From Rheinheimera sp. (lineage in GTDB: Bacteria > Pseudomonadota > Gammaproteobacteria > Enterobacterales > Alteromonadaceae), in the NCBI RefSeq assembly GCF_030690345.1, contig NZ_JAUYGV010000001.1:62001-126000 (forward strand): a stretch of DNA of 64,000 nucleotides, written 5' to 3'. The notes beneath the pieces were generated by a model that searched no databases, was not told the DNA's origin, and worked only from the letters and a program-made list of their open reading frames with translations. Below, piece after piece: positions 15,419 through 18,946 of this stretch (position 1 is the first letter of the stretch; each line of letters begins with the position of its first letter). The position numbers and the translations under genes are program-made.

Positions 15419-15451
15419 AAAAAAAGCCTGTCAATGACAGGCTTTTTACTT
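15419..15451 (+). terminator. Terminator of glgP
   Basis: The stem AAAAAGCCTGTC/GACAGGCTTTTT has a four-base AATG loop, seven bases after the glgP stop. It isolates the borosin-type operon that follows. Confidence 0.9.
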
Positions 15452-15475: not shown

Positions 15476-15505
15476 TTGTCAGGCAGGCGGAAAAAACCTT
15501 ATAGT
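15476..15505 (+). promoter_or_regulatory. Candidate sigma-70 promoter of the borosin-type operon
   Basis: TTGTCA (15476-15481) and TATAGT (15500-15505) are separated by 18 bases, 27 bases before the methyltransferase start. It lies directly after the glgP terminator, so an own promoter is expected here. Confidence 0.5.
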
Positions 15506-15531: not shown

Positions 15532-16317
15532 TTGCAGTCAGGTAGTTTAGTTTGTGTCGGCACCGGCATGACATTAGGTTCTCATATAAGCCCGCTCTCC
15601 CGCAGTTATATCGAACAGGCCGACGTAGTATTTGTGTTGGTGGCCGATGGTATTACCGAGCAATGGATAGAGCAGATGAACGCCGATGTGCGCTCATTGC
15701 AGCCGTACTATCTGGAAGGTAAATCGCGGATGATCACCTACCGTGAGATGGTCGCGACGATGTTGGCTGAAGTGAGCGCCGGCAAAAAAGTAGTCGGGGC
15801 CTTTTACGGCCACCCCGGCGTATTTGCCTGGGTACCGCACAATGCTATTAAGCAAGCGCGTGAGTTGGGTTACAACGCCCATATGGAACCTGGTATTTCA
15901 GCAGAAGATTGCCTGTATGCTGATTTAGGTATCGATCCCGGCACCTACGGCTGTCAGCACTACGAAACCAGCCAGTTTATGTTTTATAAACGCAATATTG
16001 ATACTGCTGCTTACCTGATTTTATGGCAGGTAGGTGTAGCGGGCGACAGATCGCTGGCAAAACACTCTACCGATTCCGCGTACCGGCAAATTCTTGTTGA
16101 GTTATTAACGGAGCATTATCCGGCTGAACATGAAGTGATTTTGTACGAAGCAGCTTGTTTACCCATCGAAAGAGCCATGTTTAAGTATCTGACAATCAGC
16201 GAGCTGCCGACAGCAAGCTACAGTGGTAAAACGACGTTAATTGTGCCGCCGGCAGCGAAGATGGTTGCAAACCAAGTTGTGCTGGATAAGCTCGGTTTAC
16301 TCAGCTCCGCTGATTAA
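15532..16317 (+). CDS. Borosin-type peptide alpha-N-methyltransferase (SonM-like)
   Basis: A 261-residue tetrapyrrole-methylase-fold SAM methyltransferase. It resembles SonM, the stand-alone enzyme of the Shewanella split borosin pathway, which methylates backbone amides of a separate precursor peptide. Shared stretches include the N-terminal GSLVCVGTG, SRSYIE, YGHPGVF, MEPGISAE, DLGIDPG and SQFMF. Residues equivalent to the remembered OphMA catalytic set occur at a constant offset of six: Y60, R66, Y70 (RxxxY) and Y92. The start is TTG, supported by AAGGA seven bases upstream. A GNAT gene follows after 16 bases and the candidate precursor after that. No cobalamin or siroheme genes are nearby, which argues against a porphyrin substrate. 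Fold is certain; borosin function is a strong inference. Confidence 0.88.
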   Translation: MQSGSLVCVGTGMTLGSHISPLSRSYIEQADVVFVLVADGITEQWIEQMNADVRSLQPYYLEGKSRMITYREMVATMLAEVSAGKKVVGAFYGHPGVFAWVPHNAIKQARELGYNAHMEPGISAEDCLYADLGIDPGTYGCQHYETSQFMFYKRNIDTAAYLILWQVGVAGDRSLAKHSTDSAYRQILVELLTEHYPAEHEVILYEAACLPIERAMFKYLTISELPTASYSGKTTLIVPPAAKMVANQVVLDKLGLLSSAD

Positions 16318-16333
16318 TGCAGAGGATTTGGTG

Positions 16334-16852
16334 ATGCTTTCCATTAAAACTGTTAACGCAGATTACTTTCAGTTTAGCAGTGATGAGTTGTCATTCCGGC
16401 TTCTGACATCGATTGATGAAGCGCTGTTTTGTCAGCTGTTTAGTGATGCCGCGGTCATGAAATTTATTAGTGAGCCTTTTCCCGACAGAAAAGCGCATAC
16501 AAGTTTTCATCTTGCGACAAGCATAAATAATGACGAACTTTTCACCCGTTTGTATCTGGTTGTTGAACATAACAACACAGAGATTGGCATTGCAGCTATT
16601 AATAAAATTGAACGTGCTACAGGAATAGTCGAGATAGGGCGAATGCTGTTGCCTCAATACCAGAGATTAGGTTTGGGACGACGTTTAAGCATGGCGCTGA
16701 CCAATAGATTAGTGGCTGTTAATGGTGTAAAAATTATTGAAAAGTATATAGATCCGCGGAATGTTGCTGCGATTACATCAGCAGTAAATATAGGTTATAA
16801 ACCGGCCGAAAATAATCAACAGCTGTATTATTATGTTGTTAACACGGCATAA
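16334..16852 (+). CDS. GNAT-family acetyltransferase in the borosin-type operon
   Basis: A 172-residue GNAT-fold protein. LPQYQRLGLGRRLSMAL (about 101-117) matches the acetyl-CoA pyrophosphate loop (Q/RxxGxG), and the following NGVKIIEKYIDPRNVAAITSAVNIGYK matches motif B with the Asn that begins the helix. The ATG at 16334 has AGAGGA seven bases before it, which is preferred over the long in-frame extension overlapping the methyltransferase. It lies between the methyltransferase (16-base gap) and the precursor (47-base gap). An N-terminal or side-chain acetylation of the peptide is possible, as is self-protection. The gene is AT-richer than its flanks. Substrate unknown. Confidence 0.8.
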   Translation: MLSIKTVNADYFQFSSDELSFRLLTSIDEALFCQLFSDAAVMKFISEPFPDRKAHTSFHLATSINNDELFTRLYLVVEHNNTEIGIAAINKIERATGIVEIGRMLLPQYQRLGLGRRLSMALTNRLVAVNGVKIIEKYIDPRNVAAITSAVNIGYKPAENNQQLYYYVVNTA

Positions 16853-16899
16853 AGTGATACAGTAGGTTAAACCAAAAAATCTTGAAATTAAGGATAAAT

Positions 16900-17175
16900 A
16901 TGAAGAATGTGATTAATTTTTTGGAGCGCCTGGGAAAGGATGCTCAATTAAAAAGCCTGTCAGCAGAGCAGTTGAGCGAAATGGTTAATGATAGCCAACT
17001 GACAGATGCTGTGCGCCTGGCTTTACAGGAAGGTAACGTCGCTGAGTTGGAACAATTATTGGATACGCGGCATAAAATCATTTGTTATGTGGTGGTTCCG
17101 GCTGAACAGGAGCCAGAACCCTCTGAAGAAGAACCAGATGAAAATGGGAACGAAACCAAGGTTTCTAACTTTTAA
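16900..17175 (+). CDS. Candidate split-borosin RiPP precursor peptide, 91 aa
   Basis: The short protein has an N-terminal helical domain (about 1-56, starting MKNVINFLERLGKDAQLKSL) like the leader or borosin-binding domain of Shewanella SonA (FFTQLGQDAQL). A beta-prone hydrophobic stretch IICYVVVP (60-67) follows, then an acidic Pro/Glu tail ending in VSNF. Aligned to the remembered SonA core (SYLVISHG, methylated at L63 and I65), the predicted N-methylated residues are V64 and V66. The ATG at 16900 has AAGGA six bases upstream; a TTG at 16882 would add six residues and is less likely. The acidic tail is longer than the SonA follower. Peptide identity is inferred from the adjacent methyltransferase and leader likeness, not from a database hit. 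Confidence 0.8.
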   Translation: MKNVINFLERLGKDAQLKSLSAEQLSEMVNDSQLTDAVRLALQEGNVAELEQLLDTRHKIICYVVVPAEQEPEPSEEEPDENGNETKVSNF

Positions 17176-17188
17176 TTTTCAGGCATTT

Positions 17189-18946
17189 ATGTGTCGTTCT
17201 TTTTCGCTAATTACTGTGGGGGCACTTTTTGCCCTCACTTTTTCTTTTTCTTTTTGCTTTGGTTTGTCAGCTAGTCCATTTAACCTGCAGCAGTTGACTG
17301 CTGTAGATGAGTTACGACTGCAGAGTCGCGGCGAATTTAGCACTGCATTGCATAAATTACTGCAGAATAAAGAACAACAATACTCTGACTATGAAAAGCG
17401 TTATCTGGATTTGCTGATTGCGTATGATTTGGTTTTTAACGGTAATTTGGAGGATGCGTTACTCGTCGTCAGAGATATTGTTGGCTCTAATCAATCTAAA
17501 GATGATGATGTTATTACACTTAGAGCAAGAAGCCTGGAAGTAAATATTGATTTCATTAGTTTTAGATACCTTGACGCATTTGAAAAAAGTGAAGCGCTAC
17601 TTATGGCGCTACCAAACGTACAGGACGAAATGTTGCAGTATCAGTTAATTGGTCCTGTTGCGTTGCTCTACAGTAAGATTGAACGATTTGATATTGTAAA
17701 CAAGCTGGTTGATGATGCTCTTGGGAACGTGTCCAATGAGCTGCTTCGTTGCAGGTTAACTATTTTTAAATTGACCGGAATTTATAAGCAGAAAAACTTT
17801 GATGCATATGAAGATAAATTCAAACAGGTAACAGAAATTTGCTCAGCAGCGAAAGAAACGACATTTTATTATCTGGCGTTGAGGGACCGGATGTTCTATT
17901 TGTTGGAGCGTAATAAGGCTGATGAAGTTATCGAAATTTATCAGAAATATCATTCAGCTATTTTGGAAACAAAGTACCCTATTCTTATTTCTGGTTTTAA
18001 TGCCGCAACGTCAGAAGCATATTCTCAGTTAGGGAATGATAACGAAGCTTTCAAGCTCGCTAATGACGCTTTGGCAATGATATCTCAAAATCGTAATGAT
18101 CCTGCGGTACTTTCTGCATACAGAGCGTTATACAAATCAGCAAAGAATGCTGGACGCTTAAAGGATGCTTTACTGTACGCTGAAAAGTTAAGAGATATTG
18201 AAAGTGCTATTATGAATGACAACAGAGCACAGCAGATAGCATTCCATATTTCCAGAGGTGAGATATTAATTAAGAACCAGCGCATTGCCTTGCTGGATAA
18301 AGATAATGAACTGTTGTCTTTGCAAAAAGATCTGTACGAGCAGGAATTGAAGCAGAACCGGTTGATTACCATTGTTCTGCTGTCGGTATTAGTGTTGGCG
18401 TCTTTTCTGGCCTATCGCGGCATGTCCGGGCGTAAACGCTTTAAGAAAATTGCCGAGTACGACCAGCTAACGGGGATCAGTAACCGGTACCACTTTAACA
18501 ACCAGGCCAAAGTAGCGCTGGAATACTGTGAAAAGAACGCCAAGCCGGTGGCAGTAATACTGTTCGACTTAGATTACTTTAAAAATATTAATGACCTGCA
18601 CGGCCATGCTGCGGGTGACTGGGCCTTACAGCAAGTGGTGAAAACCTGTCGTAACTTTATGCGCAATAATGACGTATTTGGCCGTATCGGTGGGGAAGAG
18701 TTTGCCGTGGTACTGCCGGGCTGCCAAACCGATAAAGCGGTATTGCTGGCTGAAATTTGCCGCGATGCGATTGCCGGTATTGATAGTACAGACTGCGGTA
18801 AACAATTCCCGCTTAGCGCCAGCTTCGGTGTGTGCGGCTCTGATACTTCCGGTTATCAGCTCAAGCAGTTGTTAGCCGATGCTGATAACGCCATGTACAG
18901 TGCTAAAGAAGCTGGCCGTGACCAGGTAATGGCTTTTTCAGCCTAG
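17189..18946 (+). CDS. Membrane-anchored TPR-GGDEF diguanylate cyclase
   Basis: This 585-residue protein begins with a signal or anchor sequence (residues 1-30, LITVGALFALTFSFSF core). A TPR-like helical periplasmic region extends to about 380. A membrane segment lies at about 391-411 (TIVLLSVLVLASFLAY), followed by a GGDEF domain. The active site is GGEEF at 501-505 and the inhibitory I-site is RNND at 492-495, so it should make c-di-GMP with product feedback. The ORF extends upstream inside the precursor gene, but the ATG at 17189 with AGG five bases before it gives a proper signal sequence. It starts 13 bases after the precursor stop. The sensor half is AT-rich and the GGDEF half is not. 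Confidence 0.88.
   Translation: MCRSFSLITVGALFALTFSFSFCFGLSASPFNLQQLTAVDELRLQSRGEFSTALHKLLQNKEQQYSDYEKRYLDLLIAYDLVFNGNLEDALLVVRDIVGSNQSKDDDVITLRARSLEVNIDFISFRYLDAFEKSEALLMALPNVQDEMLQYQLIGPVALLYSKIERFDIVNKLVDDALGNVSNELLRCRLTIFKLTGIYKQKNFDAYEDKFKQVTEICSAAKETTFYYLALRDRMFYLLERNKADEVIEIYQKYHSAILETKYPILISGFNAATSEAYSQLGNDNEAFKLANDALAMISQNRNDPAVLSAYRALYKSAKNAGRLKDALLYAEKLRDIESAIMNDNRAQQIAFHISRGEILIKNQRIALLDKDNELLSLQKDLYEQELKQNRLITIVLLSVLVLASFLAYRGMSGRKRFKKIAEYDQLTGISNRYHFNNQAKVALEYCEKNAKPVAVILFDLDYFKNINDLHGHAAGDWALQQVVKTCRNFMRNNDVFGRIGGEEFAVVLPGCQTDKAVLLAEICRDAIAGIDSTDCGKQFPLSASFGVCGSDTSGYQLKQLLADADNAMYSAKEAGRDQVMAFSA

Follow-up and report, generated by a model that had tools for sequence, protein, structure and literature searches.

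The window analysed here comprises 64,000 nucleotides of Rheinheimera sp. (assembly GCF_030690345.1, contig NZ_JAUYGV010000001.1, positions 62,001 to 126,000) and contains an operon of four genes on the forward strand, encoding in order a methylase, a GNAT acetyltransferase, a precursor peptide and a sensor in which tetratricopeptide repeats (TPR) are joined to a GGDEF domain. Its sequences leave little doubt that this is a locus for a split borosin, a rare kind of backbone-methylated peptide, belonging to a GNAT-carrying sister clade of SonM, and the biosynthetic part of this assignment is well supported. Furthermore, gene linkage, the swapping of output domains and the joint multiplication of precursors and sensors lead us to regard it as fairly probable that the TPR sensor of the operon has the N-methylated peptide as its ligand, so that the operon would both make and sense a peptide signal. 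In window coordinates, the features concerned are:

15532–16317, forward strand: split-borosin alpha-N-methyltransferase, SonM homologue, with catalytic Y60, R66, Y70 and Y92 (Pfam, phmmer against the PDB, alignment, tree)
16334–16852, forward strand: GNAT N-acetyltransferase (Acetyltransf_3, 8.7e-13), with methylase fusions known from three other loci
16900–17175, forward strand: borosin precursor of 91 residues, SonA homologue (family model, alignments, predicted structure, Foldseek)
16900–17058, forward strand: leader of the precursor, the putative borosin-binding domain, residues 1–53, with five predicted helices (structure prediction, Foldseek)
17080–17103, forward strand: likely hydrophobic core IICYVVVP, residues 61–68, followed by an acidic tail (inferred from alignment with SonA-type peptides)
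17189–18946, forward strand: TPR sensor with a GGDEF (GGEEF) diguanylate cyclase, 585 residues, the proposed peptide receptor (Pfam, linkage, predicted structure)
17216–17238, forward strand: terminator-like hairpin at the precursor/sensor junction, a possible attenuator (hairpin scan)
17276–18148, forward strand: sensor TPR superhelix, in which C188 and C218 are invariant (alignment of 51 of 51 relatives, predicted structure)
18359–18415, forward strand: predicted transmembrane helix between the TPR part and GGDEF (hydropathy of residues 391–409; continuous predicted helix 324–423)
18452–18925, forward strand: GGDEF domain (Pfam, 2.1e-43)

The positions of the first three genes had been given correctly in an earlier note on this DNA, which described them as a split-borosin locus with an enzyme akin to SonM; the description stands but the extent does not, since the fourth gene (17189–18946) had been missed. 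Pfam names the 261-residue methylase TP_methylase (7e-20), and a phmmer search of the PDB matches its residues 4–256 to SonM of Shewanella oneidensis with an expectation value (E) of 1e-78, further matches being dbOphMA/OphMA (about 1e-50) and MroMA (1e-41), whereas precorrin methyltransferases are reached only at E 0.2–0.3 and NCBIfam models lie far under their cut-off. An affiliation with the cobalamin or siroheme methylases, which the earlier note had raised as the opposing outcome, finds no support in this similarity search, and an ordinary tetrapyrrole-type methylase is likewise ruled out by it. The residues Y60, R66, Y70 and Y92 are indeed kept, as had been claimed, the Tyr/Arg/Tyr/Tyr set being invariant in all 187 aligned homologues of more than 200 residues (186 of them distinct over the last 230 residues), and they align to Y58, R67, Y71 and Y93 of the SonM orthologue in locus L096, which are residues probed by mutation in SonM (PMC8429565, in the accessible parts of that paper, as for all its statements used here). 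The enzyme stands alone with no fused core, as in type IV (split) borosins and thus as in SonM/SonA of S. oneidensis MR-1 (PMC8429565), and differs in this from the homologous fungal OphMA/dbOphMA, in which a single protein comprises both precursor and enzyme (PMC8429565). The window enzyme shares about 52% identity with the SonM orthologue, and its side clamp is three residues shorter than that of SonM. A search of its own genome finds a single methylase and a single clear peptide, a second peptide match being weak (E 0.02).

The 91-residue peptide alone has no useful sequence match in the PDB, Pfam or NCBIfam. A hidden Markov model (HMM) of the precursor family, built from the window and the related loci L001–L080, detects, in further genomes, precursors of the SonA type (E 9.5e-9 in L096 and 6.2e-12 in L104), the L096 peptide being a close orthologue of SonA (E 2.4e-38 against PDB chain 7ltc_B). 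AlphaFold2 predicts five helices (residues 2–13, 15–19, 22–31, 36–44 and 47–53; mean predicted local distance difference test score (pLDDT) 73.6, predicted template modelling score (pTM) 0.47) and no regular structure beyond residue 53, and this modelled layout corresponds to that of SonA, in which the binding domain spans residues 1–53 and the core, residues 62–71, carries methyl groups at L63 and I65 (PMC8429565). SonA is also the best Foldseek match (E 0.29, probability 0.99), and of the 28 matches 24 belong to SonA chains and three to OphMA or dbOphMA, although the E-values are weak and none is below 0.001. The likeness to SonA asserted in the earlier note therefore holds for the leader, which the family HMM links to SonA-type peptides, but not for the core, which is alike only in being hydrophobic: Rheinheimera-type cores mostly read IVC-x-x-PAE, the window has IIC-x-x-x-x-PAE, and SonA-type cores end like SYLIISHGNGD. 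The window stretch IICYVVVP aligns roughly with the position of SonA-type cores, and residues 61–68 are the likely N-methylated core stretch; the acidic tail that follows is missing from SonA, which has 71 residues. The ATG start gives the peptide of 91 residues and an alternative upstream TTG one of 97. The SonM match, the kept catalytic residues and the SonA-homologous peptide together identify the locus as a split-borosin one, and judging by these homologies the precursor is very likely methylated by the methylase.

The sensor gene begins 13 bases past the end of the peptide gene, and this arrangement recurs among the relatives. A contig scan gave 95 confirmed stretches, the best 80 of which make up 81 loci with the window and come from genera including Rheinheimera, Arsukibacterium, Alkalimonas, Colwellia, Shewanella, Rhodanobacter and Dyella. 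Peptide homologues do occur beside the methylase, as the earlier note presupposed, since a precursor is present in 80 of the 81 loci, and a sensor-family open reading frame (ORF) likewise in 80, the two misses being L033, with a diverged peptide (just E 0.006), and L038, at a contig end. In the first set of 97 sensor-cluster proteins the nearest called upstream gene is the precursor for 87, and GGEEF is intact in 95. The junction is moreover tight, since the median gap over 180 precursor–sensor pairs (177 distinct precursor ends) is 8 bases and 158 of them lie within 60 bases either way.

A sample of 295 genomes from the same order gave 107 methylase hits in 71 genomes, and the 106 hits outside the window were examined as 102 loci (L091–L192). 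At a precursor HMM threshold of E 1e-3 these yielded 99 ORFs, or 98 after exclusion of one of 489 residues, three of the 98 being weak (E 2.5e-4 to 6.7e-4). The excluded "large precursor" (L174/L217) was rejected because it overlaps the methylase ORF in a different frame, and the true precursor most likely starts later. Directly downstream of 83 of the 98 precursors lies a sensor-family ORF, with GGDEF as the output in 61 cases, a histidine kinase in 13 and no labelled output in nine, two of the nine being truncated (L095, with a separate GGDEF-region ORF beside it, and L176, at a contig end). Pfam runs on examples gave TPR with HisKA/HATPase in L098, L106, L107 and L170, two of which also have receiver domains, and stand-alone TPR proteins in L139, L172 and L189. 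The kinase and sensor-only variants rule out that GGDEF itself is the conserved partner, and it is therefore the TPR part that is kept.

Stand-alone TPR proteins were also seen in genomes of about 2.4–2.9 Mb, where one to three of them adjoin methylase and precursor (L152:5889-9410, also L135, L149 and L172); those inspected have signal-peptide-like starts, and the neighbour in L152 is a glycine-cleavage P protein gene. At L091:5319-6475 two precursor ORFs past the methylase are accompanied by a 42-residue remnant matching the GGDEF region, the sensor having seemingly been lost.

SonA itself is found in the same setting. In genome G1036, which encodes a peptide identical over 71 residues to PDB chain 7ltc_B, the order is methylase, SonA and sensor-GGDEF (L232), and the 596-residue sensor-GGDEF ORF begins on the base right after the SonA stop. 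Of 117 genomes of SonA's genus 79 have a SonA match, and five further SonA-type loci selected among these show the same order, with sensor and GGDEF as two ORFs in L237, and none of the six contains a GNAT.

The association also holds genome by genome, since 61 of the 295 genomes have both methylase and sensor, 10 the methylase only, five the sensor only and 219 neither (Fisher 3e-46), and 106 of 124 sensor hits lie at most 6 kb from a methylase. Eight of the ten methylase-only genomes have a kinase-type sensor beside the methylase, under the threshold used in the sensor search. The 18 hits far from a methylase comprise 19 sensor ORFs, and a precursor-like ORF adjoins none of them, from which it follows that the precursor accompanies those sensors that are linked to a methylase, and not the family as a whole; trans-acting orphan pairs of precursor and sensor, sought beside the same 19 ORFs, were not found. 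The genome of the window has 51 GGDEF matches, just one of which is coupled to a sequence that strongly matches this sensor.

Beside a single full-length methylase, 26 of the 81 loci have two or more precursors or sensors, and both are multiplied in 15 of these, L043 having three of each. In 13 multi-pair loci the best partner judged by precursor and the best partner judged by sensor agree in 161 of 231 cases (mean of 200 shuffles 0.47, maximum 0.65); these loci are related, however, and the concordance is therefore not an independent sample. Across 125 single-pair loci the divergence of the leader follows that of the TPR part when the methylase is accounted for (partial r 0.40) and does not follow that of the GGDEF part (-0.01), and core divergence likewise tracks the TPR part (0.41).

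The sensor begins with a hydrophobic N-terminal segment, continues as a TPR superhelix and ends, after a hydrophobic helix, in a GGDEF domain with the motif GGEEF, and its predicted structure has a mean pLDDT of 93.0. Eight stand-alone sensors start with stretches that by eye resemble signal peptides, and because of these starts and of the hydrophobic helix that precedes GGDEF in the fused proteins, the TPR part is probably periplasmic. Cysteines 188 and 218, invariant in all 51 aligned sensors including those of SonA-type loci, would be consistent with a disulfide in the periplasm. With the whole sensor as query, Foldseek found only GGDEF-containing structures among the matches listed and is therefore uninformative on the TPR part. 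Of 180 precursor/sensor junctions 25 have a terminator-like hairpin, versus three of 180 control stretches, and this pattern in the DNA suggests attenuation, by which more precursor than receptor would be produced.

The mechanism we propose starts with the methyltransferase, which would bind the helical leader of the 91-residue precursor and N-methylate the short hydrophobic stretch near residues 61–68, as SonM does on SonA. The GNAT probably acetylates the peptide, at a guess perhaps on the new N-terminus once the leader is removed. Being N-methylated and hence presumably more membrane-permeable, the mature peptide would get to the periplasm, bind to the TPR superhelix of the sensor whose gene comes next, and thereby switch the cytoplasmic GGDEF domain, and hence the level of cyclic di-GMP (c-di-GMP). 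N-methylation is stated to affect membrane permeability (PMC8429565), and a hydrophobic peptide modified in this way might cross passively. The TPR sensor is proposed as the receptor because its TPR part stays by the precursor while the output changes, and because both are multiplied in many loci. Control of this type exists in Vibrio, where, in the accessible parts of the source, the TPR part of RcbB represses its cyclase until an operon partner lifts the repression (PMC12282931); the partner there is another TPR protein, RcbA, and not a modified peptide. In its general form the proposal is that split borosins of the SonM group, like those of its sister group with GNAT, act as peptide signals, with each precursor being a dedicated ligand gene for a co-encoded periplasmic TPR receptor with interchangeable output (diguanylate cyclase, histidine kinase, phosphorelay or none), and that N-methylation lets the peptide cross the membrane and escape proteases, which would make an exporter unnecessary; to this wider statement we would give about even chances.

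Several observations weigh against the receptor proposal. No sensor lies directly 3' of 15 of the 98 order-wide precursors, three of which belong to loci with the sensor after the methylase instead (L149, L152 and L173), and three others to loci that hold a second precursor which does precede a sensor (L109, L133 and L134). The sensor family also exists without precursors, one strong match (L199) included, and among the 26 multiplied loci only precursors are multiplied in nine and only sensors in two. Core divergence follows GGDEF as well (partial r 0.28) and also the methylase when the TPR part is accounted for (0.37), and shared ancestry therefore explains part of the covariation. There are furthermore weak sensor-HMM matches among kinases (E 1e-6 to 1e-16), which may reflect generic TPR similarity. 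No exporter was seen in the operon, nor in that of the window a protease, and since the precursor has no signal peptide and the TPR part is predicted to be periplasmic, the peptide must cross the inner membrane some other way. Finally, the sensor thins out with distance. The window methylase is matched in 15 of 398 genomes of a phylum sample, and of the four matches outside the order three have the sensor (L195, L196 and L197), L195 with two sensors and no labelled precursor, while the locus L198/L225 has none. In a class sample the SonM orthologue is matched in 10 of 369 genomes, and among seven further matches from other families of the class, 28–47% identical to it, only L218 has the sensor. 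The proposal is therefore to be understood as covering SonM-like gammaproteobacterial borosins and not all borosins.

The L199 homologue (L199:3427-5217, E 7.5e-118) has no adjoining precursor or methylase, the borosin locus of its genome lying elsewhere, and is a candidate orphan or eavesdropping receptor.

The alternative that survives best, though we consider it rather unlikely, is that the TPR-GGDEF protein senses something else and merely controls when the peptide is produced or used, the peptide itself having another job. Sensor genes do frequently adjoin what they regulate, and the family occurs far from borosin genes and without precursors, but such a role does not readily account for an output that is swapped or lost while the TPR part remains beside the precursor, for precursor and sensor being multiplied together in 15 of 81 loci around a single methylase, or for the tight junction usually being that between precursor and sensor. 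It is less likely still, and in our view improbable, that the peptide is antimicrobial or membrane-active and the TPR protein an immunity or sequestering partner; immunity genes typically adjoin and duplicate with the peptide gene, and stand-alone TPR proteins with signal-peptide-like starts would suit this role, yet most sensors have GGDEF or kinase outputs, the near-universal conservation of GGEEF would be needless for immunity, and no transporter is seen in the operon. That the methylase is of the ordinary tetrapyrrole type among unrelated neighbours, with no ribosomally synthesized and post-translationally modified peptide involved, agrees with family libraries naming only TP_methylase and GNAT and nothing for the peptide, but is already refuted by the SonM match, the invariant catalytic residues, the near-constant presence of the precursor and its SonA-like predicted fold.

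In a FastTree phylogeny of 187 borosin-type methylases, rooted at the midpoint, the window enzyme falls in a clade of 118 members (support 0.89), of which 105 have a GNAT in the locus and 105 a precursor of at least 80 residues, and the sister clade of 41 members (support 0.85) holds the SonM orthologue L096. On the sequences compared, the locus adds a new member to a split-borosin subgroup characterized by GNAT and long precursors. GNAT occurs, as its own gene or fused, in 75 of the 81 loci, and its fusion to the methylase in L054 (471 residues), L062 (485) and L076 (452), as Pfam runs on L076 and L054 illustrate, speaks for its being a working partner. Its presence tracks precursor length, being found for 29 of 39 methylase ORFs with a precursor of at least 80 residues versus four of 59 with a shorter one. 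GNAT as a universal partner is ruled out by its occurrence in only three of the 41 members of the SonM clade, from which the window locus differs in this respect, and the sensor is conserved more widely. Rheinheimera nanhaiensis has a second adjoining set of genes (L018:3220-4798) with a methylase ORF of 139 residues, its own GNAT and its own precursor.

A cluster of pepsin-like genes was found in 24 of the 81 loci, all of them relatives and including Shewanella, Colwellia and Alteromonas; in the layouts listed the genes lie upstream of the methylase, and PF00026 was matched in L063 (3481-5316), the sole member scanned. These proteins are possible leader proteases of the precursors, and the cytoplasmic location given for the pepsin homologue shewasin D in the accessible parts of PMC4814920 would fit that need. 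The window differs in that no pepsin-like gene adjoins its operon.

Methylase domains of borosin type also occur inside proteins of 1174 (L225:6839-10363) and 638 residues (L190:600-2516), for which the Pfam thresholds applied gave nothing else. A borosin that carries a fused metallo-beta-lactamase domain is reportedly a functional beta-lactamase.

Two elements precede the operon, whose first gene starts with TTG and has AAGGA upstream:

15421–15447, forward strand: terminator-like hairpin 3' of glgP (12-pair stem, T-rich tail)
15476–15505, forward strand: promoter-like site of the operon, TTGTCA-18-TATAGT (10 of 12 matches)

The claim of a promoter of its own after the glgP terminator is thus borne out as to where both elements sit, but the region holds no more promoter-like sites than chance would give, four being found and 7.6 expected.

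Part of the link between borosins and GGDEF has been noticed earlier, since a figure legend from 2024 explains a GGDEF label used for a borosin architecture (PMC11395268, in its accessible parts), and this was the only open-access source found in which the two occur together. A link between borosins and diguanylate cyclases was not found in the open-access literature searched, the main mining studies (Imani 2022, Cho 2022) lying outside the search, and nothing found there combined GGDEF, tetratricopeptide, peptide pheromone and periplasmic. The accessible parts of the literature examined give no cellular role for bacterial split borosins. The sensor gene lies 3' of the precursor in most of the group, SonA included, and the question of their role can therefore be tested in a common laboratory strain. 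If the proposal is true, backbone-N-methylated ribosomal peptides would join the signals used by bacteria and would be tied to c-di-GMP and two-component control.

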